Positions 12,745 to 63,816 of a stretch of 64,000 nucleotides of DNA are shown here, piece after piece. The notes under the pieces were generated by a model. That model was not told the origin of the DNA. It did not search any database and saw only the letters and a program-made list of their open reading frames with translations. The DNA comes from Phycisphaerae bacterium RAS1. GTDB taxonomy: Bacteria > Planctomycetota > Phycisphaerae > UBA1845 > Fen-1342. The number at the start of each line of letters is the position of its first letter. Positions within the stretch are counted from its first letter, which is position 1. The DNA lies in assembly GCA_007859745.1 (NCBI GenBank), contig SMLU01000001.1, positions 2,294,001 to 2,358,000 of the forward strand. The letters are read 5' to 3'. The translations under genes and the position numbers were made by a program.

Positions 12745-12841
12745 CCGAACCTGCCGCGCCAAGCGGCGGGTTGACGATCGTAAGCGAGCGGCGCCACACT
12801 GGCCGGGAACGTCACCCCGCCGCTTGGCGCGGCGGGTTCCG
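12745..12841. repeat. Family A fold-back repeat, copy 2
   Basis: Arms 12745-12774 and 12812-12841 share the CCGCCGCTTGGCGCGGCGGG core and pair with about three mismatches. The left outer flank matches the right flank of copy 1. It sits between the A2M-like gene and the metzincin gene. Confidence 0.88.
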
Positions 12842-18894: not shown

Positions 18895-18921
18895 ACCCCT
18901 CAGGACACCGCTGACGGAGGG

Positions 18922-20601
18922 TTAGCGCAGAATGAGCAGCAACTGATTCAGCAACTCATTCGCGGTGCTAATGACGCGGCTCGACGCCTGGAAGCCGGTG
19001 CTGGACGTGATCAGCCCGATGAACTCGGCCGAGAGGTCCACATTCGACAACTCCAGCGCGCCGCTGATGATCTGGCCGCTGCCAAAGGAGCCGGGCGCGA
19101 CGATCTGCGGATTGCCCGAGTTCGCCCCGGTCGTGAAGATGTTTTTCGATTCGGCCACCAGCCCGGCGGGGTTCGAGAAACGCGCCATCGCCACCTGCCC
19201 CAGCGTCCGGGCCAGGCCGTTGCTGAACGAGCCCGTAATGGTCCCGTCATTCCCGACGGACCAGCCGGTCAGCGTCCCGGGCGGGAAGCCATCCTGCTCG
19301 CCGGCGATGACGTTCGAGGTCGCCGTCGAGAGGCCGTTCACACCCGCGAAGTCGAGCGTGAACGCCAGCGGACTCGTGGCCCCCGACGCGCTGCGATCCA
19401 CCGAAACCTGGTTGCCCGCCACGCTCAGCAGGTTGCCCTGGTTGTCGAATGCCAGCGTGCCGGTGCCCAGCGCCCGCGTCGCCCCGTTGTCCGGCGACTC
19501 GGCGTAAAAACGCCACACCGGCCCGGTCGTCGGCGTCGACTCCAGCGCGAACGTCACGTTCACCTGCACCGGCGTGCCAAGCGAGTCGTACACCGTGAAC
19601 GCGGTATACGCGCCCGAGCCGTTGCCGGCGGCATTCTGCGTGAACTGGAAGGGCACGCCTACCGCCGGGTTGTCGCTGGTGATATCGCCCGCGTCAAGCT
19701 CGATGGCGTTGGTCTCGCCGGCGTTGCCGCGGATGACCAGCCGACCGTTCTCAACGGTTACGCCCGGCGTGCCCGGCAACCCGGTTCCGGTCTGAATTCC
19801 CAGCCGCGTCTGGAGCCAACTCGCGAAATCGCCCAGCGTGCTGCCGTCTGTTCCAACGACGAACGTCTGCGGCGGAAGCTCGCGCTGCCCCTTGCTGACG
19901 CCGCGGACCGTAATGCTGGAGGCGGCGGCAAACAGCGGCGTGGCGGCGGCCGCGCCGGAGCGGAGGTCCGTCAGGGCGGTGGTTGCCGTCGCCGCCGCCC
20001 CGCCGCCGGCGACCAGCGGCTGCGTGGCGGACTCGGAGCTCTGCGTGGCGATGGCGCCGGCGGCGCTCAGGTCGCCGTCGATCGTGACGTTGGACGTGGC
20101 CCGCGCGATGCTGACCGCGCCGACCGGAATCGTCAGGTCCGCCAGCACGTTCGGCACGACGTTGAAGCTGCCGTCGACGCCGAAGCCCTGCACGAAATCC
20201 CCGTTCTGCGTCACGAGCTGATTGGCGGAGTTGAGCGTGAACGAGCCGTCGCGCGTGAAGACCTGCTGGCCGGCGGGACGGCGCAGAATGAACATCCCGT
20301 TGCCGTCAATCGCCAGGTCGCTGTTGATGCCGGTGGTTTCGATCGAGCCGTTGCCGCTGTTGCGCGTGGTGGAGGCGACCAGCGTGCCCAGCCCGACCTG
20401 CATCGGATTGGTGCCGCCGCTGGTCTCGCTGGGCTGCGTGCCGAGGCTGAAGGACTGCGAGAATTGCGTCGCGAAGAGCGTGCGCGAGCCCTTGAACGCG
20501 GTCGTGTTCACGTTGGCGATGTTGTTGCCGATCGTGTCGATCCGCGTCTGGTTGGCGTTCATTCCGCTCAGAGCGGAGTACATGGCGGTGGTGAGGCCCA
20601 T
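18922..20601 (-). CDS. flgE: Flagellar hook protein FlgE
   Basis: A 559-residue flagellar rod/hook family protein. The N-terminal motif (MYSALSGMNANQTRIDTIGN, then NIANVNTTAFKGSR) and the C-terminal helix (SNVDLSAEFIGLITSSTGFQ with RVISTANELLNQLL) are the conserved D0 coiled-coil segments. The long, variable middle, including an FlgE-like D2 region (AFTVYDSLGTPVQVNVTF), supports hook rather than rod protein. It polymerises into the flexible hook outside the cell. It is the last gene of the minus-strand flagellar cluster, and fold-back repeats lie on both sides. GAGG lies 5 nt before the ATG. Confidence 0.93.
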   Translation of the reverse strand: MGLTTAMYSALSGMNANQTRIDTIGNNIANVNTTAFKGSRTLFATQFSQSFSLGTQPSETSGGTNPMQVGLGTLVASTTRNSGNGSIETTGINSDLAIDGNGMFILRRPAGQQVFTRDGSFTLNSANQLVTQNGDFVQGFGVDGSFNVVPNVLADLTIPVGAVSIARATSNVTIDGDLSAAGAIATQSSESATQPLVAGGGAAATATTALTDLRSGAAAATPLFAAASSITVRGVSKGQRELPPQTFVVGTDGSTLGDFASWLQTRLGIQTGTGLPGTPGVTVENGRLVIRGNAGETNAIELDAGDITSDNPAVGVPFQFTQNAAGNGSGAYTAFTVYDSLGTPVQVNVTFALESTPTTGPVWRFYAESPDNGATRALGTGTLAFDNQGNLLSVAGNQVSVDRSASGATSPLAFTLDFAGVNGLSTATSNVIAGEQDGFPPGTLTGWSVGNDGTITGSFSNGLARTLGQVAMARFSNPAGLVAESKNIFTTGANSGNPQIVAPGSFGSGQIISGALELSNVDLSAEFIGLITSSTGFQASSRVISTANELLNQLLLILR

Positions 20602-20613
20602 GCGATCCTCGGC

Positions 20614-20731
20614 GAAGTAAGAAGTTCGAAGTCAGACGTCAGACGTCAGAAGTCAGAAGTGCGGACGGTCCGAACGCGACGCGCGAGCGAGCGCAAGCCG
20701 GTGCGGGCGCTCGCTTGCGCTTCGCGTTCGG
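20614..20731. repeat. GAAGTCA tandem plus inverted repeat between flgD and flgE
   Basis: Positions 20614-20665 contain tandem units such as AGAAGTCAGAAGT and CAGACGT. Positions 20670-20731 form an inverted repeat (CCGAACGCGACGC... with ...GCGTTCGG). The same combination, GAAGTCA tandems followed by GAACGCGAAGCGCAAGCGAG, recurs at 43389-43442, and its second half at 33501-33540. Confidence 0.8.
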
Positions 20732-20760
20732 ATAGTCGTCGCACAGGCACGGTCATCGAT

Positions 20761-21306
20761 CTAGGCTCCAAGCAGCCCGGCCAGAAACGAGCCGGACTTC
20801 GGCTTCTGCTGCGCCTTCGGCTTGGCCGCCGCGCTGTCTGGGCCGAGGCCCAAACCCGCCAGCAGCGAATCCGCCTGCTGGGGCGTCGTGATTTTGGTCA
20901 CGTCCGTCGCGGACACGGTCTGGCCGCTGTCCAGCTCGAGCACCGCGGCGCCGTCGGGGCCGAAGCGCACGCCGGTCACGACGCCGGCCACCTCGGTCTT
21001 CGAGCCGTCGGCGCCCGTGACCTGGGCGGTAACGAACTTGCCGATCAGGTCGCTCAGGCCGGCGGTCTTCTGCTGGCGCGAGAGCTTGTCGAGCGTCCTG
21101 CTCAGGTCCTTGCTCAGCTCAATGCTGCGAATCTGCGAGACCTGGTTGATCATGTCCTTGGTGGACGACGGCGCCAGCGGGTCCTGCTGCTGAAGTTCCG
21201 TAATCATGATCTTGAAAAAATCCTCGCTGCGCATCGCGCCCAGGCCGCGATCGGGCGTCGCGCCGGCCGCCTGAGTTCCGTGCGAGTCAACTGCTGCGGG
21301 GGTCAT
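20761..21306 (-). CDS. flgD: Flagellar hook-capping/assembly protein FlgD
   Basis: A 181-residue protein with the FlgD N-terminal signature DFFKIMITELQQQDPLAP followed by MINQVSQIRSIE. The C-terminal part has the beta-rich GKFVTAQV-type domain (GVVTGVRFGPDGAAVLELD) but ends in a short Ala/Lys-rich tail; it is shorter than the roughly 220-230 residues of enterobacterial FlgD. It caps the growing hook. The start is ATG 21306 because GGAG lies 6 nt upstream; a TTG four codons earlier lacks support. It lies between fliK and flgE, separated from both by fold-back repeats. Confidence 0.92.
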   Translation of the reverse strand: MTPAAVDSHGTQAAGATPDRGLGAMRSEDFFKIMITELQQQDPLAPSSTKDMINQVSQIRSIELSKDLSRTLDKLSRQQKTAGLSDLIGKFVTAQVTGADGSKTEVAGVVTGVRFGPDGAAVLELDSGQTVSATDVTKITTPQQADSLLAGLGLGPDSAAAKPKAQQKPKSGSFLAGLLGA

Positions 21307-21335
21307 GCGGGTCTCCAAAATGGCGACTCATGCTC

Positions 21336-21482
21336 TCCGAGCCGCGACCTTTACGAGCCGCGACCTTTCCGAGCCGCGACCGTGAGGGAGCGGCCAACCG
21401 TGAGCGCCGGCGCCGGACCGCTCCCTTACGGTCGCGGCTCGGAACCGCGGCTCGGAAGCGCGGCTCGGAAACGCGGCTCACT
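21336..21482. repeat. Family B fold-back repeat, copy 1 (nested)
   Basis: The main arms 21369-21393 (starting CCGAGCCGCGACCGTGAGGG) and 21418-21442 (ending GGTCGCGGCTCGG) pair over 25 bp with one mismatch. Extra tandem arms of CGAGCCGCGACC lie on the left and CGCGGCTCGGAA on the right. It occupies the fliK-flgD junction. Confidence 0.9.
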
Positions 21483-21496
21483 CGCGGCCGACTTCT

Positions 21497-22888
21497 CTAC
21501 GCCAGCACATTCACGTGCGGCGCCGATGTACCGCGCCTCGCCTTCACCGCCGCTCGCACATCGGCCGCCGGCTCAAGTTCAGCCTCCGGCGGCGTGGCGG
21601 ACGCCATTCGCGCGTGCGATTCCGCCGGCTCGTGCCCCGCGGTCGGGTCGCCTCCTTGCTCGCGACCGCCGGCTTGCTGCTGCGCCTGACCGGCCGAGTC
21701 CTGCCATCCGTGGCGGTGTTCGGTCGGCGCCCAGTGCTCGCCGCCGCCTGCAGCCGAGTGGCTCAGCGCTCTGAGCTCCACCTGCTGCAAGTGAATTCCG
21801 GCGGCATCGAGACTGCTGCGCAGCGCATCCAGTTCCGAGCGGAGCAATCGGTGTGCCACATCGCTCTGTGATTCGATTCGCAGCGACAGCGCGTCGTTGC
21901 GCAAGTCCAATCGCAGGCGGATCATGCCGAGTTCCGGCGGGTCGAGGCGAATCACCGTCGTCGAGCGATTTCGGTCGATCTGCGTCTGCAGCACGCGCAC
22001 GATCCGCTCGATATTCATGTCGCTTTCGCGCGTCGCAGCCTCCGCCCCGCGCGACGTCGAAGCGTCCGTCGCTCGCAGACGAAGCGCGGCGGGACTGCGA
22101 TCAAGCGTCGGCCCCGCCGCGCCTGCTGGCGCCGGCGGATGCATCGCCGCGCGGCCGACGGCCGCCGCTGCGGTTGCCTGCGCCCGCGCGACGGGGGAAC
22201 CGGACGGCAACGGGGCCACTACTGTCGCATCCACCGGCGGCCGTGATATCGGTGCGACCGGCGAAGCCGTTGCTTGTGTGGCGCAATTGAGCTGGTGCGG
22301 CTGCGGTCGAGGCGCTCCGCCCATGGATTCCGCGACCGGGCGCGCCGCTGACGCAACCGACGGGCTCGCCTCGCCATTGGCGGACGATTTCACCGCTCCA
22401 GTCCGTGGAGCGATCGCCACCTGTTCCGCCGCCGGAGCGTTCGTTTTCTGAATCGTCGTCGAATCCCGCTCGCCGGACGCCGCCTCGGATGGCGTCGCCG
22501 ACCCGGCGGCTGATTGGCGATCGCGTGCTTGAGCGGCCGCGTCTTGAAGTGCTTTCTGGAACGCCTGCCCGTGCTCCTGCCGGTCGAGCGCGGCCTGGGC
22601 GTTCCGCTCCAGTCGCGCCGCGGCCCGCGAGCCGGGCGCCAGCGTGCGTTCCTGTTCGCCGACAATCTGCGAATGCGTCGGCGGCGCGAGGGCCTGTGCG
22701 GCCGCGCCGGCCCGCCGCTCGTCGTCGCTGCGCCGTTGGCGGCGGTGTTCGTCCTCGTCTCGTGCGGCGCGCTCATCGGCCGCGGCGCGCGACGACGGCG
22801 CGACGCCATCCAGAAACGGAAGGAACCCTGCGCCCGCCGCCTCGCGGCGCGCCCCGGCGGCCAGCGCCGCCACGTGCGACTCGACCAT
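21497..22888 (-). CDS. fliK: Flagellar hook-length control protein FliK
   Basis: A 463-residue protein. The first 280 residues are Ala/Arg/Pro-rich and disordered, as in other FliK ruler domains. The C-terminal Flg_hook domain is recognisable as TVIRLDPPELGMIRLRLDL followed by LSLRIESQSDVAHRLLRSEL and LDAAGIHLQQVEL. A further Gln/Gly/Ala-rich tail of about 90 residues follows. FliK measures hook length and switches export specificity. AAGG lies 7 nt before the ATG, and the gap from the motE-like gene is only 9 nt. Confidence 0.9.
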   Translation of the reverse strand: MVESHVAALAAGARREAAGAGFLPFLDGVAPSSRAAADERAARDEDEHRRQRRSDDERRAGAAAQALAPPTHSQIVGEQERTLAPGSRAAARLERNAQAALDRQEHGQAFQKALQDAAAQARDRQSAAGSATPSEAASGERDSTTIQKTNAPAAEQVAIAPRTGAVKSSANGEASPSVASAARPVAESMGGAPRPQPHQLNCATQATASPVAPISRPPVDATVVAPLPSGSPVARAQATAAAAVGRAAMHPPAPAGAAGPTLDRSPAALRLRATDASTSRGAEAATRESDMNIERIVRVLQTQIDRNRSTTVIRLDPPELGMIRLRLDLRNDALSLRIESQSDVAHRLLRSELDALRSSLDAAGIHLQQVELRALSHSAAGGGEHWAPTEHRHGWQDSAGQAQQQAGGREQGGDPTAGHEPAESHARMASATPPEAELEPAADVRAAVKARRGTSAPHVNVLA

Positions 22889-22897
22889 CGGTCAGCC

Positions 22898-23626
22898 TTA
22901 CTGTGACTGTCCGCCGTCGGTCTTCCCTGACGTGTCGGCGTATCCCTCAACCCTTGCCAGCCGCAACTGCTCCAGCAGTTCGTGCATGAGCTTCAGCTCA
23001 TCCGGCGTTTTCATCTGCTCCAGAATCTTCTTCCCCTTCGCGACACTGAGTTTCATGAACAACCGCACTGCGTCCGGCTGGTGGCTGGCCCAGGTGCGCG
23101 ACAAGTGCTCCTTGGCCAGCCTGGGCGAAAGGCCCGAGACGTATTCGACCTCGCGCAAAAAACCGGCGTCGCTGTCGGCTTCGGTCAGCTTCTTGCGCTG
23201 CTGCTGCCAGGAGACCTTCCCCGCCTCGAATTCCTCGGCCTTGGACATCAGCGTTTGCAGGCTCGAATCGAGCAGCCGCTGGCGGGCGGCAATGTCTTGT
23301 CGGGCGCGCTCCAGCAGGAGACTCTCTAGCTGGGCGTGCCTGCGTCGCAGATCGACCGTCTCGCCCGGCCGGACGCCATGCGCGTCGGCATGTCCCGCGC
23401 TGCGGGCGGCGCCCACCTCGTCGTCCGTCGCATGATCGGCCGGCGCCGAGGCAGGCTGGCTGGTCGAGACTCCGGCCGGTTCGGCTTCGCCGCGAAGGGC
23501 CGCGGCCATGTGCTCCAGTCGCTGCGGCGTGAGCTTGCCGGTGGCGACGAGATAGCCGATGACGCCGCCGCCCGCGAGCAGGTTGGCGATGCCGACAACG
23601 GCCAGGAGTTGGTAGATCTTTGCCAT
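22898..23626 (-). CDS. MotE/FlaA-locus type flagellar coiled-coil membrane protein
   Basis: A 242-residue protein with one N-terminal membrane helix (about 6-30), a disordered Pro/Ala/His linker and a coiled coil (about 95-165). Its C-terminal domain ends in PDAVRLFMKLSVAKGKKILEQM, similar to the MgtE_N/MotE-like helical repeat that resembles FliG. In several phyla this type of gene lies beside fliJ, fliI and fliK, and in alphaproteobacteria MotE is a chaperone for the MotC stator protein. The position between fliJ and fliK supports a flagellar role. The symbol is withheld because orthology to MotE is not certain. Confidence 0.72.
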   Translation of the reverse strand: MAKIYQLLAVVGIANLLAGGGVIGYLVATGKLTPQRLEHMAAALRGEAEPAGVSTSQPASAPADHATDDEVGAARSAGHADAHGVRPGETVDLRRRHAQLESLLLERARQDIAARQRLLDSSLQTLMSKAEEFEAGKVSWQQQRKKLTEADSDAGFLREVEYVSGLSPRLAKEHLSRTWASHQPDAVRLFMKLSVAKGKKILEQMKTPDELKLMHELLEQLRLARVEGYADTSGKTDGGQSQ

Positions 23627-23660
23627 GCGATTTCAGCGCTGTCGGCATGCGCGGCCGACC

Positions 23661-23752
23661 GGGGAGTTCAGAGTGGCGAGTAGCGAGTAGCGAGTTGAAG
23701 AGTCACGGCGGTCCCTTTCACTTGCTGCTCGCTACTCTGAACTCTGAACTCC
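23661..23752. repeat. GCGAGTA/GAACTCT fold-back repeat between fliJ and motE-like
   Basis: The left side has tandem GCGAGTA units after GAGTTCAGAG; the right side has CTCGCTACTCTGAACTCTGA. The arms pair around a spacer of about 30 nt. Positions 23732-23752 encode the last residues (VQSSE) and TAG stop of fliJ. Confidence 0.75.
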
Positions 23753-24193
23753 GATTCTCACATACAATTGCTGTGCCACTTCGTCGATCGTCGCCTGTTC
23801 GCGCCGCTCACGGGCGTCTTGATATTCGCCGTGCCGCCGTTCCCTCAGCTTTTCCAGCGATTTCGTGTCCGTTTGGGCCCTTCGCAGGTCCGTGCGAATC
23901 GCCTCCAGCTCCTGAGTCAGCGACTGGCGCAAGATGCGCCGCTGCACGATGGTCTTGCGCAGATGCGCGATCCATGCGCGTCCGCGGGCCAGGTCCGACG
24001 GGTCGACGTTTGTCTCGGACTGCCGCCGGCGGAGCGCCTGCTGCTGAGCTTCGATTTCCCGCGACGTGGCGAGGTTGTCGCCATCCACGCGGGCAATCTC
24101 GGCGAGCTTCATGCCGAATCGCCGCTTGATCTCCTGCTCGCGCAGGCGACGGACGCGCAGGAGCGTCTCCAGTCTGAATGCGAATCGCCTCAT
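23732..24193 (-). CDS. fliJ: Flagellar export protein FliJ
   Basis: A 153-residue, almost wholly helical protein beginning MRRFAFRLETLLRVRRLREQ, the usual FliJ opening in which the first helix packs on the export ATPase. The rest is a coiled coil of the normal family length (about 145-150). FliJ binds the FliI hexamer in the manner of the gamma subunit of F1-ATPase and connects it with FlhA. The ATG at 24193, with GGAG 8 nt upstream, is preferred over a GTG three codons earlier. The C-terminal VQSSE and stop codon come from the repeat at 23661-23752. Confidence 0.85.
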   Translation of the reverse strand: MRRFAFRLETLLRVRRLREQEIKRRFGMKLAEIARVDGDNLATSREIEAQQQALRRRQSETNVDPSDLARGRAWIAHLRKTIVQRRILRQSLTQELEAIRTDLRRAQTDTKSLEKLRERRHGEYQDARERREQATIDEVAQQLYVRIGVQSSE

Positions 24194-24226
24194 ACACTTC
24201 ACTCCGCGTCACAATCGAAAATCACG

Positions 24227-24320
24227 AATGGAAAACGGGAAATGAGAAACGGGAGAACGCCGGCCCGGCGGGCCGCTTCCAGTTTCCGGATTTCCGTTTC
24301 CCATTTTCCATTTTCCAATT
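24227..24320. repeat. GGAAAA/TTTTCC fold-back repeat between fliI and fliJ
   Basis: The left arm has GGAAAACGGGAAATGAGAAA; the right arm has tandem TTTCC units (CCATTTTCCATTTTCCAATT). The centre is CCGGCCCGGCGGGCC. It fills most of the 172-nt fliI-fliJ gap. Confidence 0.75.
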
Positions 24321-24365
24321 CACCCGCGGCGTCGGCTCGGGACACGAAGACAGGGTCGTCCGACG

Positions 24366-25724
24366 CTACCTCTTTCCAGCCGCCTGCGTCTTTTCGATCA
24401 GCTCACCCAGCGCCAGCAGCGCCGCCACCGATTGCTCATGCGTCTCGTGCGCGTCGCGGTCCTGCGTCAGGAACGCCGTCACGACCTCGCGCGTCTGCAC
24501 GGCCGTGTCGTAGGCCGCGTTCGTTCCCGGCACGTACGCGCCGATGCTGACCAGGTCCTCGATGTCCTTCCACGTCGCCAGCACCTGCCGCACGCGCCTC
24601 GCCGCCCGCGCCTGCGCTTCGCTCTGCACATCCGGCGCCACGCGGCTGATGCTGTTGAGCACGTCAACGGCCGGGTAGTGCCCGCGATTGGCCAACCCGC
24701 GCGAGAGCCAGATGTGTCCGTCCAGAATGCCGCGCACCGCGTCGGCCAGCGGCTCGTCGATGTCGTCGCCGTCCACCAGGACCGTGTAGATGCCCGTGAT
24801 GCTGCCGTGCTGCGTGCGTCCGGCGCGCTCCAGCAGCCACGGCAGCATGGCGTAGACGCTGGGCGGGTAGCCCTTCTGCGTGGGCGGCTCGCCCGCGGCC
24901 AGCCCCACTTGCCGCTGGGCCATCGCCATGCGCGTCAGCGAGTCCATCATCAGCAGTACGTTCAGCCCCTGGTCGCGGAAATACTCGGCGATCGCGGTCG
25001 CATGCATGCAGGCCCGCACGCGCAGCGCGGCGGCTTCGTCAGACGTGCACACAACCACGACGCTCCGCGCCAGTCCCGCGTCGCCGAGCTGCCCCTCGAC
25101 GAAGTCGCGCACTTCGCGGCCGCGCTCGCCGATCAGCGCCACCACGTTCACGTCCGCCTGCGTGTGCCGGCACATCATCCCCATCAGCACGCTCTTGCCG
25201 ACGCCCGTGCCCGCGAAGACGCCCAGCCGCTGCCCGCGGCCGGCCGTCAGCAGCCCGTCGATGGCGCGGATGCCCAGCCCGAGCGGCTCGTCAATGCTGC
25301 GCCGCTCCAGCGGACCGGGCGCGGCCCGTGACAGCGGGTAGCGCACGTTCAGCAACGGCGCCGGCCGCCCGTCAAGCGCCCGGCCCTGTCCATCGATGAT
25401 CCGCCCCAGCAGGTCAAAACCGACCGGAACGCGCAGCGGCCCGGAGCGGCATTCGACGGCGTCGTCCGGCGCGATTCCGGTTGCATGTCCCAGAAACGAA
25501 AGCACCGTCTCGCCGCCGCTGAGCGCGACAACCTCCGCGTCGACCGCGCCGTCGCGGCGCGTCTGCACCACGCAGCGCGCTCCGACCGGCGCCGGCAATC
25601 CAACTGCCGTCGCCGATAGCCCGCGGCTGGCGCAGATGCGGCCGCGGAGGCGCTCGCTCAGCGCCGAGCGAACCTCGTCGCGCAGCAGCCCGAACAGCGT
25701 GTGCGGAGTCGCGCCGCGGGTCAC
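24366..25724 (-). CDS. fliI: Flagellum-specific ATPase FliI
   Basis: A 452-residue ATPase of the F1-beta/T3SS family. The Walker A motif is AGTGVGKS (residues 171-178), preceded by RAIDGLLTAGRGQRLGVF. Walker B is LLMMDSLTRMA, and AAGEPPTQKGYPPSVYAMLP is the characteristic FliI/YscN segment. It drives unfolding and chaperone release of export substrates at the base of the flagellar export gate. It starts with GTG in a GTGA overlap with the fliH stop, so synthesis is coupled to its regulator FliH. Confidence 0.96.
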   Translation of the reverse strand: MTRGATPHTLFGLLRDEVRSALSERLRGRICASRGLSATAVGLPAPVGARCVVQTRRDGAVDAEVVALSGGETVLSFLGHATGIAPDDAVECRSGPLRVPVGFDLLGRIIDGQGRALDGRPAPLLNVRYPLSRAAPGPLERRSIDEPLGLGIRAIDGLLTAGRGQRLGVFAGTGVGKSVLMGMMCRHTQADVNVVALIGERGREVRDFVEGQLGDAGLARSVVVVCTSDEAAALRVRACMHATAIAEYFRDQGLNVLLMMDSLTRMAMAQRQVGLAAGEPPTQKGYPPSVYAMLPWLLERAGRTQHGSITGIYTVLVDGDDIDEPLADAVRGILDGHIWLSRGLANRGHYPAVDVLNSISRVAPDVQSEAQARAARRVRQVLATWKDIEDLVSIGAYVPGTNAAYDTAVQTREVVTAFLTQDRDAHETHEQSVAALLALGELIEKTQAAGKR

Positions 25725-26431
25725 TCGCGCTCCTGGCGCCCGGCGGCGTCGCAGACGAGCAGGTCCGCCAGCCGCTGAAGCTGTGTTTCAAAGGTGGCGT
25801 CGATCTCGCCGTCGATCGTGCGAACGATGCATCCGCCGCGCGTCGCTTCCGGACTGACCCCGAAACGCACGTGCTGCAGCCGCTGGACGCCGGCCGCGAA
25901 CTCCGGCGCAAACTCGGCCAGCAGGGCATGCTCTTCCGGGCAGAGCAGCACTTCGACGTCCGCCGCGTGCCGCACCAGCCCCAGGGCGCAGCGCACGTTT
26001 TCGACCGCCGCGTCCGTCGATTGCAGCGCGCTGCTCTTGCAGACGCGCCGCGCGATCTCCAGCGCCAGCTCGATCAGCCCGGTCTCGGCCTCCGCCAGCA
26101 GCCGGTGCTTTCGCTGCTCGATGGACTGAATCAGCGTTTGCAGCGTCGCGGCGAGCTGCGCCACGGAAGCGCGCATCTCGCCGAAAACCGCCTGCCGCGC
26201 TTCCTGGTGAATCTGTTCGATCCCCGCCGCGCGCCCGTCGGCGACGCCCTGGGCGAAGAGCCGCTCTCGCTGCGCCGCAAACTCGGCCCGCGCCCGCTCC
26301 GCGGCTTCTTCCAGGAGCCGGGCCGCGCGGACCCTGGCATCGGCCACGATGCGGTCGGCCTGCGACTCAACGCTCTCAAACGAAAACGCGGAAGCAGCCT
26401 TGTACGTTCCGTGTCGCAGAATCCCGGCCAT
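25721..26431 (-). CDS. fliH: Flagellar assembly protein FliH
   Basis: A 236-residue protein with the FliH layout: a short variable N-terminus, a long Ala/Glu/Arg coiled coil (about 30-110, ARLLEEAAERARAEFAAQRE) and a C-terminal V-type ATPase E-subunit-like domain (LIELALEIARRVCK... GGCIVRTIDGEIDATFETQL). It binds FliI as a dimer and links it to the C-ring. It overlaps fliI by 4 nt. The upstream gap to fliG (169 nt) contains two fold-back repeats. Confidence 0.92.
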   Translation of the reverse strand: MAGILRHGTYKAASAFSFESVESQADRIVADARVRAARLLEEAAERARAEFAAQRERLFAQGVADGRAAGIEQIHQEARQAVFGEMRASVAQLAATLQTLIQSIEQRKHRLLAEAETGLIELALEIARRVCKSSALQSTDAAVENVRCALGLVRHAADVEVLLCPEEHALLAEFAPEFAAGVQRLQHVRFGVSPEATRGGCIVRTIDGEIDATFETQLQRLADLLVCDAAGRQERE

Positions 26432-26475
26432 GAGACTCCATTCCGGCCAGTCGGTGTCGGCTTCGGACGAAAGGA

Positions 26476-26544
26476 CACGGTCAAGCGGTCGCGTTCAGCG
26501 ACTGTCAAACCTCGCACGTCCACCGGCGCGACCGCTTGACCGTG
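26476..26544. repeat. Perfect 18-bp inverted repeat between fliG and fliH
   Basis: CACGGTCAAGCGGTCGCG (26476-26493) and its exact reverse complement (26527-26544) are separated by 33 nt. No second copy was found in the window. Confidence 0.85.
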
Positions 26545-26551
26545 CCACCCG

Positions 26552-26600
26552 CCGTCGGACTCAGAGGTCCGACGCTACATTCGCTATTCGCTATTCCTGG
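26552..26600. repeat. Family E repeat plus ATTCGCT tandem, copy 1
   Basis: GTCGGACTCAGAGGTCCGAC is itself a short palindrome. It is followed by GCTAC and tandem ATTCGCT units (CATTCGCTATTCGCTATTCC). The same pairing of a GTCGG-type palindrome with ATTCGCT units recurs at 44388-44440. It ends at the fliG stop. Confidence 0.75.
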
Positions 26601-27647
26601 CTACACCAGCAGGTCCTTTTCTCCTCCCTTACCCTGGATGACGACTTCGCCGGCGTCTTCCAGCCGCCGCACGATATCGACCACCCGCTGCTGCGCGGCC
26701 TCGACGTCCGTGACGCGGATCGGTCCCATGAACTCCATCTCTTCGCGGATGAGCTGCGCGGCGCGCTCCGACATGTTCTTGAAGATCTTCTCTTTCAGCT
26801 CGTCGCTCGCGGTTCGCAACGCCACCGCGAGCTCGTTGTTGTCCACTTCCTTCAGCACCGCCTGGATGCCCTTGTCGTTCACCAGCCGGATGTCGTCGAA
26901 CACGAACATCAGCCGCCGAATTTCCTCGACCAGTTGCGGGTCGTCCGTCTCCAGCCCTTCCATGATGTGTTTTTCCGCCGCCCGGCCCGCCAGGTTCAGC
27001 ACCTCGGCCACGGCGGTGACGCCGCCGACGCGCTCGAAGCGCGCGTGCATCAGTCCCGCCAGGCGTTTCTCCAGTCCGCGCTCGACTTCCTTGATCACTT
27101 CGGGGCTGGTCTGATCCATCTTGGCGATGCGCGTCACGACCTCGACCTGCCGGTCCGCCGGCAGCGCGACGAGGATCTCCGCCGCCATGCTGGGCGGCAG
27201 GTGCGACAGCACCAGCGCCACGGTCTGCGGATGCTCCTCCTGAAGGAACGTCACCAGGTTCTCTTTGCCGGTTTTCTGCAGAAAGCTGAACGGCTGCTCG
27301 TGAACCTGGTGCTCGATCGTCGCGATGATGCGCTTGGCCTCGTCGGTCGGCAGCGTCTTCTGCAACAGCGAGCGGGCCAGGTCCATGCCGCCGCTCTCGG
27401 CGTACTGCCGTGCCAGCACCAGGTTATAGAACTCCATGATCACCCCCTGGCGCAGCTCGGGCGAAACGTCGGTCATGCCGGCAATTTCGCGCGACAGCTC
27501 CTCCACGCGCTCGCGCGACAACCCCTTCATCAGCGCCGCCGCGGTGTCCTGACTCAGCGCGAGCAGCAGGATGGCGGCCTTTTTCGCGCCGGAAAGCGCG
27601 TCCAGCGTTTCGGAACTCGTCCTTTCGCTCAGTCGCATGTCGGCCAT
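26601..27647 (-). CDS. fliG: Flagellar motor switch protein FliG
   Basis: A 348-residue protein with the three FliG domains. The N-terminal FliF-binding part (SGAKKAAILLLALSQDTAAA), the middle domain with EEHPQTVALVLSHLPPSMAA, and the C-terminal torque domain (MFVFDDIRLVNDKGIQAVLK, then ERAAQLIREEMEFMGPIRVTD) are all visible. The charged torque-helix residues that contact the stator are retained. It forms the upper C-ring. It starts 41 nt after fliF. Confidence 0.95.
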   Translation of the reverse strand: MADMRLSERTSSETLDALSGAKKAAILLLALSQDTAAALMKGLSRERVEELSREIAGMTDVSPELRQGVIMEFYNLVLARQYAESGGMDLARSLLQKTLPTDEAKRIIATIEHQVHEQPFSFLQKTGKENLVTFLQEEHPQTVALVLSHLPPSMAAEILVALPADRQVEVVTRIAKMDQTSPEVIKEVERGLEKRLAGLMHARFERVGGVTAVAEVLNLAGRAAEKHIMEGLETDDPQLVEEIRRLMFVFDDIRLVNDKGIQAVLKEVDNNELAVALRTASDELKEKIFKNMSERAAQLIREEMEFMGPIRVTDVEAAQQRVVDIVRRLEDAGEVVIQGKGGEKDLLV

Positions 27648-27688
27648 CCGCTCTCAGCTTTCAGCAATCGACGTTCAGCGCTTCGCCA

Positions 27689-29449
27689 TCACCGGCGGCT
27701 CGATTCCGTCCGGCGTATCCACTGCTCCATCAGCGTCGCCACGCTGGAGGCGTCGCCGGCGGCCACATCCGAGACCTGCTCCAGCATCTTGCGCGTCTGG
27801 ACGGTGTGCTCGTTGACCTCCTGCGCGACAAGCACACCCTCGGCCGCGGCCGCCTGCCCGGCGACCGGGATGGCCATGGCCGGGGCCGCGTCACCTGCGC
27901 CGCCACGGGCCCGCCCGCTGCCCGCGCCGCGGCCGCCGGTGACCGGCGTTCGCCGGCCCGCGGCCGATGCCGCGTCGTCCGCCGCCTGCTTGGCCGCCTC
28001 GATCGCTTCCTGCGGCAGGCCCAGCTCGATGCCGAACGAGTCGCCCGTCGCGCTGGAGCGAGCCATGCGCAGCATCAGCCCCAGCGAGAGCAGCGCGAGC
28101 AGGCCCAGACCGGCCTGCGGCCCGTAGCGACGGGTCACGTCCAGCGCTGTGTCGAGCGAACTGCCCGCCTGCGGAGGGCCGGCCGATTCCGGTGCGTCGT
28201 AGTACCAGCTCACCGCGACCTGATCCTCGTCCTTCGAGTCCTCGGCCGGTTTCAACAGCTTGGCGACCAGCGCCACCACCCGCGATTTCTCCTGATCGAA
28301 GATGTCCTGAATCTTCGCCGGCGGCGCCGGATCGGTCCCGGGGTTCAATCGGCGGTAGATGCTCTCCAGATATGAGTACGACAGGTTGATCGCCGCAAAG
28401 CTGGACTGAATCTCCCCGCCCGGCGTCGTTTCCGTCGTGTGCGTGAATCCCGTCTGGCTCTGCACGCGATTGGTCGAGCGAATCTGGGTCTCATCCGCGC
28501 CGCCGCCGCTGACCGAAACAGCGGTGTTCGGCTCCACCCCCGGCTGGCCGCTGCGCCGCAGGCGGGCCGAGTTCTCCTCGGTAGTCTCGTTGGAGACTTC
28601 GACCGGGTCGGTCAGCGTTCGCGATTCCTTCGCGCGGCTGGCCAGGTCGAGCTCGACGCGGACGTTTACGCGCACACGCGGGTCGGCTGCCAGCAATCCG
28701 CGGATTTTCTCCTCGATCAGCTTTTCCTGTTTGACGCGCTCGCGGTGCAGCCCGCCGCCGCCCGATTCACCCTGCTCCCAGTCGAGCGCCACCACGCCGC
28801 TGCCGTCCACCACCTGCACATTTCGCAGCGGCAGCCCGCGCACGGCCCCGGAGACCGTGCGGGCGGCGGCCAGCGCCAGGTCGCGCGAGACCTGCTCTCC
28901 GCTCTTCATGATCAGTGTGACGCTGGCCGACGACAGCGGCGCATCCTTGGTAAACCCGCGCCGCTGCATCCCCATGTCGACGAACACCCGCGCCGCCTTG
29001 ACGCCGCTGAACTGCCTGAGCACCTGCTCAATCTCGCTCTGCAGCGCCACCGTCCAGCGCCGGTCGTGCTCCGCCTGTGAAATCCAGGGGTTGGATTCCT
29101 TCACCAGCGCGTCAAAGCCGGCGCTGGTGTCCGAGGGTAGATTGTCCTGAAGCTGAAGTTGCGCGAGTAGCGCCGGGCGATTCGCCGTGCCGCGCACCAG
29201 CACCTGCTGCCCCGAGATGCGGGCCGGCTCGTTCATCAGGTCCAGCCCCGCCTTCACCCGCGCCAGCTCCTGCGCCGACAGCGGCTGGTCCAGCAGCGCG
29301 ACCATCTCCGGGGCGGCGGCCCATTGCGCCAGCCAGCCGAGCGAACCGGCCACCAGCAGCGCCCCCAGCAGCAGCGCCACTTTCTGCGACGCGCTCATGC
29401 CGCGAAGCTGCGCCCCGATGCGCGTCAACAGACCCTGCAGGAAATCCAT
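27689..29449 (-). CDS. fliF: Flagellar MS-ring protein FliF
   Basis: A 586-residue protein with two membrane helices (about 22-42, KVALLLGALLVAGSLGWLAQ, and about 458-475) and the periplasmic ring-building motifs in between, including ARVFVDMGMQRRGF and the YscJ/FliF region. The C-terminal FliG-binding segment is recognisable as MLEQVSDVAAGDASSVATLM. It forms the MS ring. The ATG at 29449 is preceded by AGGAG at 8 nt; the longer frame adds 21 basic residues encoded by intergenic sequence. It is the first flagellar gene of the cluster here; fliE, flgB and flgC are not adjacent. Confidence 0.94.
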   Translation of the reverse strand: MDFLQGLLTRIGAQLRGMSASQKVALLLGALLVAGSLGWLAQWAAAPEMVALLDQPLSAQELARVKAGLDLMNEPARISGQQVLVRGTANRPALLAQLQLQDNLPSDTSAGFDALVKESNPWISQAEHDRRWTVALQSEIEQVLRQFSGVKAARVFVDMGMQRRGFTKDAPLSSASVTLIMKSGEQVSRDLALAAARTVSGAVRGLPLRNVQVVDGSGVVALDWEQGESGGGGLHRERVKQEKLIEEKIRGLLAADPRVRVNVRVELDLASRAKESRTLTDPVEVSNETTEENSARLRRSGQPGVEPNTAVSVSGGGADETQIRSTNRVQSQTGFTHTTETTPGGEIQSSFAAINLSYSYLESIYRRLNPGTDPAPPAKIQDIFDQEKSRVVALVAKLLKPAEDSKDEDQVAVSWYYDAPESAGPPQAGSSLDTALDVTRRYGPQAGLGLLALLSLGLMLRMARSSATGDSFGIELGLPQEAIEAAKQAADDAASAAGRRTPVTGGRGAGSGRARGGAGDAAPAMAIPVAGQAAAAEGVLVAQEVNEHTVQTRKMLEQVSDVAAGDASSVATLMEQWIRRTESSRR

Positions 29450-29655
29450 CCTGGATGCTCCTGACCGTCCCGCCGCCGCCCTCGGTTCCACCGAGTTACG
29501 CCGTGGCGGCATTCAACCCCATCGGCCCGCCCGCCGCGCGACCTGACGCCCGAGCGCGGCACCCGCGCGTCCGCGCAACTTCAACGCGCAGGTTGCACCG
29601 GCCCCCAAACGCGATCCGAACCGCGACCGGGGGGTGCGGGCTTACCGACTCGAAA

Positions 29656-29781
29656 CTGTGAGCGAGCGGCATTTCCGAGCCGCGACCGTGAGCTAGCGGA
29701 CCCTGCAAGAACCGCTTGCTCACGCGCGCGGCTCGGACACGCGCGGCTTGGACGCGCGCGGCTCGGACGCGCGCGGCCCGG
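29656..29781. repeat. Family B fold-back repeat, copy 2
   Basis: The left arm, from 29674, reads CCGAGCCGCGACCGTGAGC; the right arm is 29712-29736 (CCGCTTGCTCACGCGCGCGG), followed by three further GCGCGGCTCGGAC-type tandem units to 29781. The class order is opposite to copies 3-5. It lies upstream of fliF. Confidence 0.85.
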
Positions 29782-29786
29782 TTGGT

Positions 29787-30146
29787 TCACTCACTGGTCT
29801 TCGCTTCCCCGTTCAACTCATCCAGCAGCGCCGCCGCCCGTCGCAGGTGGGGGATCACGATCGACCCGCCGACGATCAACCCGACGTTCAGGATTTCCCA
29901 GAGCTGATCGTCGGTGGCGCCCAGTTCCTTGCAGCGGATCACGTGATAGGCGATGCAGTCGTCGCAGCGCAGCACCAGCGAGGCCGACAACCCGGCGAAC
30001 TCCTTGGTCAGGGCGTCCAGTTTCCCGGCTTCATAGGCCTTGGTGTCAAGCGTAAAGAAGCGATTGATGGGCAGATTCTGCTGGGCCAGGATGCGGGCGT
30101 TCATCTTCTCGCGGAACGCGCGAAACTCGGACAGGCGCGTGCTCAT
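29787..30146 (-). CDS. AhpD-like (carboxymuconolactone decarboxylase family) protein
   Basis: A 119-residue all-helical protein of the CMD/AhpD family. The redox-active motif is C61-DD-C64 with H68 in LRCDDCIAYHV, followed by the family's GATDDQLWEILNVGLIVGGS. Proteins of this size usually act as small peroxidase or disulfide-exchange partners and form trimers or hexamers. It stands alone, upstream of the flagellar cluster on the same strand, with a family B repeat in between; no functional connection is evident. Confidence 0.88.
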   Translation of the reverse strand: MSTRLSEFRAFREKMNARILAQQNLPINRFFTLDTKAYEAGKLDALTKEFAGLSASLVLRCDDCIAYHVIRCKELGATDDQLWEILNVGLIVGGSIVIPHLRRAAALLDELNGEAKTSE

Positions 30147-30233
30147 GCAGTCTCCAGCGTTGAGGGACCATTCCGCGCCAATTCTATCGGGACTCCGGCC
30201 GATCCGCGGCTCGCACGCCGGACTGGGCTGACG

Positions 30234-31002: not shown

Positions 31003-31680
31003 ATGTACGCGAGACGCTTGTCGATCGGGCTGGGAGCGCTCCTGCTGACGTCGCCGGCGCTGGGCAGCCTGGTGCTGCCGCACAGCCAGAGCGTTTCCAG
31101 CAGCAGCGACCTGTTCTCACTCACCAACACCGGCACGGGCGGGGCGGCGTTCTTCAAGGCCGCCGGTACCACGCAGGAGGCCGTCTTCGGCTGGGCCAAT
31201 TCGACGACCGGCGCCAACACCGGCGTTTTCGGTCAAACCAGCAGCACCAGCGGGCGCGGCGTTTTGGGCAAAGCCACGGCCACGACCGGCACCTGCTACG
31301 GCGTGCGCGGCGAGAGCGTCAGCACCAGCGGGCGCGGCGTGTTCGGGCAGGTGACCACGACCACCGGCGCGTGCTACGGCGTGCGCGGCGACGCGGCCAG
31401 CAGCGGCGGCTTTGGCGTATATGGCCGGAATACGGCCGGCAGCGGCGCGACCGGCGGCGTTCGCGGCGAAACGACCAGGCGGACGACGCGGATGCACGCC
31501 GCCGGACGACGGCGGGCGCGGCGGCGGAATACGATCCACGCGGCGTGGCTGACTAGCGTCGTTGGTCACGCTGTCCGCATCTTATTTGGGTGGGACGGGC
31601 GTCTCGCCCGTCGCATGGGACGGGCGAGACGCCCGTCCCACCCAAATGTTCACAAGCTCAGACGCCCGTCCCACCCATGA
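31003..31680 (+). CDS. Secreted protein with GVxG-type tandem repeats, probably frame-disrupted
   Basis: A 225-residue frame. Residues 1-21 form a signal peptide (MYARRLSIGLGALLLTSPAL). From about residue 60 there are repeats such as GVFGQTSSTSGRGVLG and TATTGTCYGVRGESVSTSG, a pattern seen in secreted Gly/Thr/Ser-rich beta-structured proteins. After GGVRGET (near 31470) the protein becomes Arg-rich and the final 40 residues are encoded by the family D repeat, so this frame is unlikely to be the original one. Another frame reads acidic and Ala-rich to a TAG at 31556. GAGG lies 5 nt before the ATG. Probably a truncated or frameshifted gene; its function is unknown. Confidence 0.5.
   Translation: MYARRLSIGLGALLLTSPALGSLVLPHSQSVSSSSDLFSLTNTGTGGAAFFKAAGTTQEAVFGWANSTTGANTGVFGQTSSTSGRGVLGKATATTGTCYGVRGESVSTSGRGVFGQVTTTTGACYGVRGDAASSGGFGVYGRNTAGSGATGGVRGETTRRTTRMHAAGRRRARRRNTIHAAWLTSVVGHAVRILFGWDGRLARRMGRARRPSHPNVHKLRRPSHP
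31584..31676. repeat. Family D fold-back repeat, copy 1 (perfect 29-bp arms)
   Basis: ATTTGGGTGGGACGGGCGTC begins the left arm (31584-31612), which is the exact reverse complement of 31619-31647, with a 6-nt loop. A third partial arm (CAGACGCCCGTCCCACCC) lies at 31659-31676. It sits between convergent genes and may terminate both. Confidence 0.92.
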
Positions 31681-41237: not shown

Positions 41238-41359
41238 AGAAGGGATTCTCGCACCAGCCCTGATTCTCGCACCAGCCCGCTTCTGGGGGACCGGCCTCCG
41301 GCCGCTCTTTTTTCGCGCGACCACGTGCGGCTGAGACCGGCCGGAGGCCGGTCCCCCAG
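41238..41359. repeat. GATTCTCGCACCAGCCC tandem and perfect 22-bp inverted repeat
   Basis: GATTCTCGCACCAGCCC occurs twice at 41245-41280. Next, CTGGGGGACCGGCCTCCGGC (arm 41283-41304) is the exact reverse complement of 41338-41359, with a 33-nt spacer. It lies between the divergent sdh anchor and Eis-like genes, directly upstream of a TATAGT box. Confidence 0.85.
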
Positions 41360-42569: not shown

Positions 42570-43404
42570 CGCGGCGATCGGGATCGACATCGGCGGAACG
42601 TCCATCCGCGCCGGGCTGGTGGATCGCGAGGGGCGGATTCTGGCGACTGCTAAATCCCCAACGCCAGCGGGCGGAGAGCCGCGGGCGCTAGCCGAGGCGT
42701 TGCGGAAGCTGGCGGCGGAGGTCACGCCGCTGCGCGGCGAGCATGCGATCGGCGTGGCGCTGCCGGGGCTGCGCGACGAATCGGACACGCTGGTTCGGGC
42801 CGTCAACCTGCCGAAGCTGGAGGGGACGGCGCTGCCGGCGTTCTTCAAATCCTGCCTGGGTCGCGACGTGCGGATCGAGACGGATGTGATTGCGGCGGGC
42901 CTGGCGCAGTGGCGCTGCGCGGCCGAAAAGGACGGAGCGCGCGCCGCGCGGCTCCTGTACCTGTCGCTCGGCACCGGCGTCGGCGGCTGCGTGCTGATCG
43001 ACGGCCGGCCGCTGCGGCACACGCACGGCGGCGCCGGCAGCCTGGGCCACGTCGTCGTCGATACGGCCGATGACGCGCCGCGTTGCCGCTGCGGCGGCCA
43101 GGGGTGCCTCGAGGCGCTGGCCGGCGGCTGGGCGCTTGAAGAGCACGCCACGCCTGAGGCACGGCGGCTGATCGCGCTGCGCACCGCGATCACGAACTTC
43201 GCGGCCCTCTTCGCGCCGACGCTTATCCTCCTCGGCGGCGGCGTCATCGAGCGCCGTCGCACCTGGATCGACGCCGTGCGCGCGTTGTTCACTGCGCCGT
43301 CGCAAGTGTTGGGTGATCCGATCCCTATGATCGAACCCGCCCCGCTTCCGGCGGATGACGCCGGCGTCATCGGGGCGGCGTGGGAGGGCAGAAGTCAGAA
43401 GTAA
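42559..43404 (+). CDS. ROK-family sugar kinase
   Basis: A 281-residue ROK protein. The phosphate-binding motif GIDIGGTSIRAGLV is at residues 8-21. LSLGTGVGGCVLIDG and the zinc-type CRCGGQGCLE motif follow, with HTHGGAGSLGH as the ROK signature; catalytic Asp lies in ETDVIAAGLAQW. It lacks an N-terminal helix-turn-helix, so it is a kinase (probably glucokinase-like) rather than a repressor. It overlaps the Eis-like gene by 11 nt. The final residues RSQK and the TAA stop are provided by the GAAGTCA repeat at 43389-43442. Confidence 0.88.
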   Translation: MASDAAIGIDIGGTSIRAGLVDREGRILATAKSPTPAGGEPRALAEALRKLAAEVTPLRGEHAIGVALPGLRDESDTLVRAVNLPKLEGTALPAFFKSCLGRDVRIETDVIAAGLAQWRCAAEKDGARAARLLYLSLGTGVGGCVLIDGRPLRHTHGGAGSLGHVVVDTADDAPRCRCGGQGCLEALAGGWALEEHATPEARRLIALRTAITNFAALFAPTLILLGGGVIERRRTWIDAVRALFTAPSQVLGDPIPMIEPAPLPADDAGVIGAAWEGRSQK

Positions 43405-43442
43405 GAAGTCAGAAGTCAGAACGCGAAGCGCAAGCGAGCGCG
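43389..43442. repeat. GAAGTCA tandem plus GAACGCGAAGCGCAAGCGAG
   Basis: Four GAAGTCA/GAAGTAA units are followed by GAACGCGAAGCGCAAGCGAG. It is the second copy of the element at 20614-20731. It overlaps the last codons of the ROK gene. Confidence 0.8.
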
Positions 43443-46430: not shown

Positions 46431-46492
46431 GTAGCATCGGACCTCTGTGTCCGACGACGGTTTTGGCGTCGGACGCAGAGGTCCGACGCTAC
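46431..46492. repeat. Family E fold-back repeat, copy 2
   Basis: GTAGCATCGGACCTCTGTGT (arm 46431-46455) pairs with 46468-46492 (GTCGGACGCAGAGGTCCGAC then GCTAC) in 23 of 25 positions. Confidence 0.88.
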
Positions 46493-48565: not shown

Positions 48566-48637
48566 GGGCAAGTTTGACGGTTGGTGCGATGGGCGCCATG
48601 TCATGGCACCCATCGCACCAACCGTCAAGCTTGCCCA
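48566..48637. repeat. Long near-perfect hairpin upstream of murD
   Basis: GGGCAAGTTTGACGGTTGGT (arm 48566-48600) pairs with 48601-48637 at about 33 of 35 positions with almost no loop; the mismatches would be G-U pairs in RNA. The in-frame ATG at 48581 lies inside the hairpin and was rejected as the murD start. Confidence 0.88.
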
Positions 48638-56229: not shown

Positions 56230-56256
56230 GAGCATCCCGTAACCGCCGTTTCCTTT

Positions 56257-56331
56257 CCGAGCCGCGCGCGTAAGCAAGCGGTTCTTGAGCCCCCGCAAAC
56301 AAGAAACCGCTCCCTCACGGTCGCGGCTCGG
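56257..56331. repeat. Family B fold-back repeat, copy 5
   Basis: The left arm (56257-56281) is of class 2 (CCGAGCCGCGCGCGTAAGC); the right arm (56307-56331) ends GGTCGCGGCTCGG. The flank upstream (ATCCCGTAACCGCCGTTT) matches copy 4. Confidence 0.9.
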
Positions 56332-56351
56332 AAATGCCGAGGTTTGTCGCG

Positions 56352-62626: not shown

Positions 62627-63816
62627 TGGATTCCTACCTGCCGACGCTGACCGAGCCTCAACGCCGCTGGTTGCGATTCGGCCTGCTGGTGCTGGCGCTG
62701 GTTGTGCTGGCCGAGCTGACCTACCTGCTCAGCCCGGTCCTGACGCCGGTGCTGGCGGCGGCGGCGATCGCGTACATTCTCAATCCGGCCGTCACCTGGC
62801 TCGAACGGCGCGGCAGCTCGCGGCTGACCATCGTCATCGGCATCTACGTGGTCGGCGCGGCCGCGCTGGTGAGTCTCGGTATCTACGCCGTCACGGCCGC
62901 GGTCGCGCAGGCCGCGGAGCTTCAGGCGAATGTCGCCGGATACGTCGATGCGATCCGCTCCTGGTGGAGCGCGTCCTCGGCGTCCTCACAGCCATCGACG
63001 CGGGCGGCGCTCTTGGACCGGGCCGCGCCGATTCTCAAGGAACACGGCGCCGGCGTCGCGGGGCGGCTGCTCAATTCCATGACCGATTTTCTGTCCAACG
63101 CGATGAACCTGGCCTCGGCGCTGGTCCTCGTCCCGATGTACGCGTTTTTCTTCCTGCTGCATTTCAACGGCATGGTTCGGGCAGTGCGCGAGCACCTGCC
63201 CAGCGCCTATCGCGACGCGATCGTCAGCACCGTCACGATCACCGATCGCGCCATGGCGAGCTTCTTTCGCGGCCGGCTGCTGGTCTGCATGGTGATCGCG
63301 ATCGTCACGGGAATCGGCTGGACGATCGTCGGCGTGCGCTACGGGTTGCTGCTCGGGGCGCTGGCGGGCCTGTTCAATCTCGTGCCGTTCATGTCGATGC
63401 TCTCGCTCCCGCCGGCGATTCTCTTCGCCTACCTGGAAGCGACCCAGTCGGGGTTGTCCTGGCTCTGGCCGGTGATTCTGACGTTCGGGGTTTACGCCGG
63501 CGCACAGGCGCTGGAGTCGCTCGTGCTGACGCCGCTGATCGAAGCGCGGCAATCCGGCCTGCACCCGATGACAACGGTGATCGTGCTGCTCGTTGGAGCA
63601 CAATGGGCGGGCCTGCTGGGCATGTTGCTCGCGATTCCGATCGCCAGTACGCTGAAGACGTTCGCGGTTCAGCTTCTCTTGCCGGAGTTGCGAAGACTGG
63701 CCGCGCCGGTTCATCCGGACGCTCCGCCCGCCGCCGCTGTGACCGGCGACAGCAGCGAGCAGTCAGCCGAGCCGCGTCCTCTTTCCGAGCCGCGACCGTC
63801 AGGGAGCGGTTCTTGA
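62626..63816 (+). CDS. AI-2E family transporter (PerM-like permease)
   Basis: A 396-residue protein with about eight membrane helices in the AI-2E/PerM pattern: an N-terminal pair (LRFGLLVLALVVLAELTYLL and VLAAAAIAYILNPAVTWLER), a long soluble loop, then SMTDFLSNAMNLASALVLVP and the C-terminal core with GALAGLFNLVPFMSML and TPLIEARQSGLHPMTTVIVL. Members export autoinducer-2 or sodium/protons; the substrate is unknown. The final 15 residues (EPRPLSEPRPSGSGS) and stop codon are encoded by family B copy 6. GTG one codon before ATG 62626 is an alternative start. Confidence 0.88.
   Translation: MDSYLPTLTEPQRRWLRFGLLVLALVVLAELTYLLSPVLTPVLAAAAIAYILNPAVTWLERRGSSRLTIVIGIYVVGAAALVSLGIYAVTAAVAQAAELQANVAGYVDAIRSWWSASSASSQPSTRAALLDRAAPILKEHGAGVAGRLLNSMTDFLSNAMNLASALVLVPMYAFFFLLHFNGMVRAVREHLPSAYRDAIVSTVTITDRAMASFFRGRLLVCMVIAIVTGIGWTIVGVRYGLLLGALAGLFNLVPFMSMLSLPPAILFAYLEATQSGLSWLWPVILTFGVYAGAQALESLVLTPLIEARQSGLHPMTTVIVLLVGAQWAGLLGMLLAIPIASTLKTFAVQLLLPELRRLAAPVHPDAPPAAAVTGDSSEQSAEPRPLSEPRPSGSGS

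Follow-up and report, generated by a model that had tools for sequence, protein, structure and literature searches.

Repeat elements at the gene junctions of a flagellar cluster in Phycisphaerae bacterium RAS1 probably belong to genome-wide repeat families

The planctomycete Phycisphaerae bacterium RAS1 carries, on contig C1 of its 5.5 Mb genome (G000), a flagellar gene cluster in the order fliF-fliG-fliH-fliI-fliJ-(motE-like)-fliK-flgD-flgE. Among named relatives, those nearest to it in FliG are uncultured Phycisphaerae/Phycisphaerales metagenome-assembled genomes. The cluster lies within a 64,000-nucleotide stretch of DNA, here called the window, and its roomier gene junctions are occupied by inverted repeats predicted to fold back on themselves, which we sort into numbered repeat families (F1, F2 and so on), most of them related to repetitive extragenic palindromic (REP) sequences, and into arrays of 7-bp units, or heptads (Table 1). 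Genes were assigned by Pfam search, except for the motE-like open reading frame (22898-23626), which has no Pfam match and is named from its position and its conserved place in relatives. For fliJ the Pfam search favours the frame 23732-24202 (PF02050), and a competing frame at 23808-24212 was dropped. The flgE-fliF cluster holds six strong fold-backs, along with a GTAG hairpin that is weaker. A first-pass annotation of this DNA had placed inverted repeats between flgD and flgE, fliK and flgD, fliJ and the motE-like gene, fliI and fliJ, and fliG and fliH (two), with another preceding fliF. All of these exist. A gapless hairpin scan counted 17 hairpins in the window, where two first-order Markov shuffles of it yielded 1 and 0. 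The three tight junctions (fliH/fliI, fliF/fliG and motE/fliK) are free of fold-backs, as the annotation had stated.

When the RNA of the operon strand is folded, the predicted energies of the six main elements are -47 to -112 kcal/mol (z -6.1 to -9.5), while the single GTAG hairpin at fliH/fliG is weak. The element at motE/fliJ overlaps the 3′ end of fliJ and supplies its final residues and stop codon, the FliJ tail IGVQSSE being encoded by a heptad arm of the fold-back; in most relatives FliJ stops a few residues past ...QQL and the next gene begins almost immediately after. The period-7 scan missed the fold-back at fliJ/fliI, whose assignment to the heptads was made by eye. Adjoining this fold-back, the TAG stop codon of fliI falls on the GTAG tag of a degenerate sequence resembling F3 (24360-24369). 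The F1 doublet before fliF has a tail of partial repeats reaching about 29780.

Table 1. The flagellar cluster and the repeat elements at its junctions, in window coordinates.
Feature	Junction	Position	Strand	RNA fold (kcal/mol; z)	Basis
Flagellar gene cluster, fliF to flgE		18922-29512	-		Pfam; order kept in 40 relatives
7-bp tandem array, GAAGTCA/GACGTCA words, beside F2 doublet	flgD/flgE	20614-20660			Period-7 scan
F2 REP-like doublet, inverted pair of CNGA-footed GAACGCGAMGCGCAAGCGAGCGC	flgD/flgE	20664-20737 (inverted repeat 20669-20732)		-53.2; -6.8	Hairpin scan
F1 REP doublet with extra half-copies	fliK/flgD	21336-21471 (core 21367-21444)		-112.1; -9.5	Hairpin scan
Fold-back of 7-bp arrays, GAGTAGC/TGAACTC words	motE/fliJ	23663-23752			Hairpin and period-7 scans
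Fold-back of A/G-rich words of about 7 bp (GGAAAAT/GGGAAAC type)	fliJ/fliI	24229-24317		-47.1; -6.1	Hairpin scan
F9 doublet, 69 nt, 18-nt perfect arms CACGGTCAAGCGGTCGCG	fliH/fliG	26476-26544		z -6.5	
Single GTAG-tagged REP, family F3 (GTAGCGTCGGACCTCTGAGTCCGACG)	fliH/fliG	about 26553-26578	-	-14.3; -2.2	Sequence
Short 7-bp array ATTCGCTATTCGCTATTC after the F3 REP	fliH/fliG	26579-26596			Sequence
F1 REP doublet	upstream of fliF	29669-29745 (inverted repeat 29674-29737)		-54.0; -7.0	

These sequences are far from private to the operon. The F1 half-element (CCGAGCCGCGACCGTNAGGGAGCGG), which sits at fliK/flgD and upstream of fliF, has 350 copies in the genome at no more than 2 mismatches; the F2 half-element has 223 and is present at all in 8 of 60 relatives; and arrays of GAGTAGC give 157 matches, with a patchy 0-33 in relatives. 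Reversed patterns, used as a control, returned near-zero counts. A 464-kb sample of the genome (the window plus twenty 20-kb stretches) contained 100 hairpins, most of them from a handful of recurrent families, and 92 lay outside genes as called by a home-made codon-usage gene caller, which leaves gap boundaries approximate. F1 and F2 are thus short, dispersed and mostly extragenic palindromes, as are REPs and the hairpins formed by REP doublets (REPINs). In the window and sample F1, F2 and F3 occur as inverted doublets, the F3 unit at fliH/fliG being single. Their feet are of two types, GT[AG]G in F3 (class 2 type) and CNGA in F1 and F2 (class 3), and neither is found in F9 or the heptads; the proposal that all the fold-backs are GTAG REPs was ruled out by the CNGA of F1 and F2. 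F1 itself starts with CCGA (CAGA in relatives G034 and G038), and its unit can be drawn as CCGC-GA-CC-GTNA-GG-GA-GCGG, which would give a short stem, interrupted by a tandem GA mismatch and capped by a GNNA loop. F9 is the least certain family, with about seven genome doublets at a fixed offset of 50-51 nt read from a noisy match list, and single matches at 3 mismatches only a little above the control.

The heptad elements at motE/fliJ and flgD/flgE consist of tandem 7-bp units in intergenic DNA, and the commonest short tandem periods in the genome sample are 7 and 8. A further GAAGTCA array, like that at flgD/flgE, lies at 43389-43421 of the window. Two relatives carry 7-bp arrays of other words (GATTTGA, CGAATGA, ACTAAYA; L089 in G048 and L066 in G009), so that heptad arrays appear to be widespread in the order with differing words. 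A literature search found no paper on heptad repeats in Planctomycetota. Strong fold-backs also occur elsewhere in the window, at 1862-1961, 12747-12839, 31584-31647, 41283-41359, 46431-46492, 48566-48636, 56254-56334 and 63783-63846. Most belong to the same genome-wide families; that at 48566-48636 (35-nt arms, 1-nt loop) matches no family found.

The first-pass annotation had taken the repeats to be elements that insert between genes and have invaded one operon repeatedly. The idea of repeated insertion has stood up, as set out below; that of an operon singled out has not. Across the genome sample about 36-40% of same-strand gaps of 100-500 bp are occupied, as are about half of convergent gaps, divergent gaps being occupied less often. 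A bias towards convergent and same-strand gaps has been reported for REPs (PMC3733652). All six cluster gaps longer than 100 bp are occupied, but at the genome-wide rate a run of six consecutive occupied gaps is expected about 3.4 times by chance. Special targeting of the flagellar operon therefore need not be invoked, and the idea was dropped on these run statistics.

Comparison with relatives provides the evidence for insertion in one lineage. The annotation had proposed asking whether relatives lack the repeats while keeping the gene order, and this is what was found. The cluster has an identical gene order in 40 relatives, drawn from the same family and order, and conservation of the repeats at the same places was not seen. 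The F1, F2, F3, F4, F5 and F9 motifs are all missing from the 388-398 kb of homologous cluster in these genomes, the F3 motif giving one match in the RAS1 cluster. A single hairpin lies outside genes in the relatives' clusters, an unrelated one at fliG/fliH of L081. The gaps themselves tell the same story: the five invaded gaps within the cluster measure 169, 163, 105, 178 and 159 bp, against same-family medians of 50, 21, 23.5, 52 and 57 bp, and just 1 of 92 relative junctions is as long as the invaded gaps here. The relatives' gaps are 80-140 bp shorter, or about the length of an element, whereas the three free junctions are near the relatives' lengths (41 against 7.5, -4 against -4 and 9 against 8 bp). 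Missing REP motifs together with shorter gaps in relatives that keep the gene order argue for lineage-specific insertions. Two relatives, G011 and G014, each hold more than 300 copies of F1 and have none within the flagellar cluster, so the junctions are not obligatory targets.

For some of the families a candidate mobilising enzyme can be named. F1 flanks on both sides a gene for a Y1 protein with class 3 motifs (G000:C4:138092), and it also stands on both sides of homologues in G011, G034, G059, G058 and G037 (at least 60% identical) and in G041 (54%); around the transposase of these seven genomes the left-hand copies are mostly forward and the right-hand ones mostly reverse. Homologues in G006 and G055 (54%) have no adjoining F1. 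This partner protein fits class 3 of TnpA(REP), to judge from its sequence. Across alignment A1, from which rows L235 and L243 were left out as wrong-strand sequences, the copies show NHVH, Y----Q and a core of about 155 residues (NHVH and YVDEHQ in the RAS1 copy), with WT, WA or WS where class 3 has W[TA], and the flanking CnGA-footed repeat has the high copy number of that class. At least five F1 copies are found in 24 of 31 genomes with a transposase homologue and in 5 of 30 without (Fisher's test, 2e-6; 61 genomes, in a statistic that ignores phylogeny). A second Y1 gene (L183, G000:C1:3081730) is accompanied by four exact copies of F3, which lie to either side of it, and F4, F8 and F11 flank other Y1 genes. 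At a contig end, F5 flanks a class 3 paralog gene with 12 forward and 3 reverse copies in exact 41-bp steps (L188, G000:C4:1-1130). Elsewhere (L189, G000:C1:2614582-2619716), three identical tandem copies of a Y1 gene lie 1578 bp apart with a fourth, related copy inverted.

Collectively these results indicate that the fold-backs are, very probably, copies of short genome-wide repeat families, mobile or expandable, and that these copies built up in the operon's gaps after its lineage split from the sampled relatives. F1, F3 and F2 are REP-type or REP-like: their units are palindromes of about 25-30 nt that carry a CNGA or GTAG foot and are usually arranged as inverted doublets. A dedicated Y1 HUH transposase of the REP-associated tyrosine transposase type (TnpAREP/RAYT) would recognise the folded single strand of F1 or F3, cut at the foot and then reinsert the unit; the transposition step itself is taken from the REP literature and is proposed here by analogy. 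The heptad fold-backs probably grew by slippage. Insertions would have been tolerated because they lie in gaps; once transcribed, the inserted units would fold into stable hairpins within the operon mRNA, and the effect of this is most likely mild or nil. Several points weigh against this interpretation. The comparison set lies outside the genus, the nearest relatives being only about 74% identical in FliG, and it showed no empty site, no target duplication and no exact junction. The correlation between F1 and its transposase ignores kinship, two draft genomes (G005 and G022) hold 86 and 68 copies of F1 with no such transposase found, and F2 and F9 adjoin none of the known Y1 genes and have no cognate transposase. 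Loss of the elements in all the sampled relatives is a further alternative, though an unlikely one.

It is pertinent to ask whether the hairpins are instead functional RNA elements, selected to set the ratio of flagellar proteins through 3′-end protection, attenuation or processing. Their folds are indeed stable (z -6 to -9.5 for the six main elements), they are found on the transcribed strand of what is probably an operon, filling its every gap above 100 bp, and a stabilising or destabilising effect on mRNA has been proposed for REPs elsewhere (PMC3733652). Such a role is nonetheless improbable given that the elements are missing from 40 relatives sharing the gene order, that the elements at the junctions come from unrelated families, that the same elements occupy some 40% of comparable gaps genome-wide, with six-gap runs expected by chance, and that there is no T-tract terminator on the operon strand. 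An Rfam search of the fold-backs matched no family. By analogy with REPs elsewhere, a mild, lineage-specific effect on the RNA is possible. Strong G+C-rich hairpins at gene ends could also mark intrinsic terminators, dividing the cluster into several transcription units. This is very hard to sustain, since an intrinsic terminator is a G+C-rich stem followed by a T tract on the transcribed strand, and no T tract lies behind any of the junction hairpins; a terminator scan of 18900-30200 found none on the minus (operon) strand, its yield on the plus strand was 4 where shuffles gave 6.4, and the junctions at the same places in relatives are very short.

A different origin would have all the fold-backs, heptad arrays included, born in place by replication slippage and template switching. 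The heptad arms are tandem 7-mers, as slippage predicts, and the F1 element at 21336-21471 shows local expansion of half-copies. But F1, F2 and F3 are sequence-identical hundreds of kilobases apart, F1 is found in other taxonomic families as well, and transposase genes are flanked by F1 and F3, all of which makes an origin in place unlikely for the set as a whole. For the heptad fold-backs alone, slippage may be the source.

Copies of genome-wide families remain the favoured account of the fold-backs, and the search for the enzymes behind them led into housekeeping genes, in which REP transposases are embedded in frame. The F1 transposase of RAS1 lies within valS as part of one uninterrupted frame of 1581 codons (G000:C4:135680-140422; L270:3681-8423). 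The frame scores 824 bits against the NCBIfam valine--tRNA ligase profile (cut-off 612), with the insert between profile positions 470 and 472. F1 repeats bracket the insert and read in frame as PLPHGRGSE and SRDREGAVL; no second valS was found in this genome. Homologues of the transposase lie in frame in alaS of G011 (L254, two inserts), G059 (L255), G058 (L256) and G037 (L257), in none of which was a second alaS found. Y1 domains are also in frame in leuS and valS of G027, and RAS1 has class-2-like Y1 domains in ileS (C3:128477-132784, L271) and gcvP (C1:698412-702089, L192), with the motifs YIFGNP and YVCQNP, the ileS insert carrying F4 repeats that read GTGVSPV. In purH, Y1 domains are in frame at about residue 264 in genomes from several families, namely G007, G014, G018, G032, G036, G039 and G049 (L260-L266). 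A split purH match at this place is seen in about half of the relatives, and the purH frame of RAS1 is 961 codons long. An assembly error is unlikely, because the inserts come from several independent assemblies and share a site in purH.

The embedded class-3-like copies keep their HUH and tyrosine motifs (alignment A1), with the exception of that in G018, whose first His is replaced by Arg. The REP arrays around the inserts are in frame, those of F1 in valS advancing mostly in 39-bp steps and those of F4 in ileS in 30-bp steps, both multiples of three; the extragenic F5 array advances by 41 bp. Such embedded copies may be active, and their location may protect them against loss. We tentatively suggest, at odds a little short of even, that REP transposases use essential genes as a refuge, in which in-frame REPs act as linkers and the motifs are kept, and from which hundreds of gap repeats, including those of the flagellar operon, are seeded. 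No description of in-frame embedded REP transposases was found in the literature searched, an absence that is no proof of novelty.

The flagellar fold-backs belong to kinds of repeat that are already known, namely REP-type families and heptamer arrays. GTAG REPs and their RAYT transposases have been described, Planctomycetes included (Di Nocera et al., PMC3733652). The RAS1 families resemble REPs, REPINs or bacterial interspersed mosaic elements (BIMEs) with TnpAREP in their palindromes, inverted doublets, hundreds of extragenic copies and gap bias and, for F1 and F3, in a Y1 gene flanked by the family's own repeats (PMC3733652; PMC6006769), and F3 does so also in its GTAG tag and in the exactness of the copies that stand to either side of its Y1 gene; in contrast, the foot of F1 and F2 is CNGA rather than GT[AG]G, and F9 and the heptad fold-backs have neither. 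Class 3 Y1 proteins are rare, being found in less than 0.3% of species and mainly in Planctomycetes and Acidobacteria. They have NHVH and Y----Q motifs, and their flanking structures have a CnGA foot and up to about 600 copies; proteins longer than expected were set aside in that study as fusions or errors (Quentin et al. 2018, PMC6006769). The F1 system, from a planctomycete, is like them in its CCGA or CAGA start, its hundreds of copies and the motifs and core length of its protein, but differs from published class 3 in that the transposase gene is embedded in frame in essential genes.

The heptad arrays resemble the TAACTGA repeats of Beggiatoaceae and Cyanobacteria (PMC4679880) in their intergenic 7-bp runs, several related words and patchy distribution across genomes, but are often inverted pairs that form fold-backs of 80-100 nt. 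As for repeats within genes, intragenic REPs in tRNA synthetases are known, and the inserts recall in-frame intragenic REPs and the Rickettsia palindromic elements (RPEs) in that palindromes are read through in housekeeping genes, tRNA synthetases included (PMC3733652); unlike those, the REP arrays in RAS1 and its relatives bracket a whole transposase domain inside the gene. Less ordinary are the pairing of heptad arrays in inverted orientation and the REP transposases embedded within genes. Heptamer direct repeats are also familiar from Cyanobacteria as short tandemly repeated repetitive (STRR) sequences.

A conserved operon may therefore carry strong hairpins in one lineage only, and these are not to be read as conserved regulation. 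The same data reveal, in Planctomycetota, a REP system of several families whose repeats can be matched to transposases, including those of the barely studied class 3, and the transposases embedded in housekeeping genes raise the question of how REP transposases persist in genomes.

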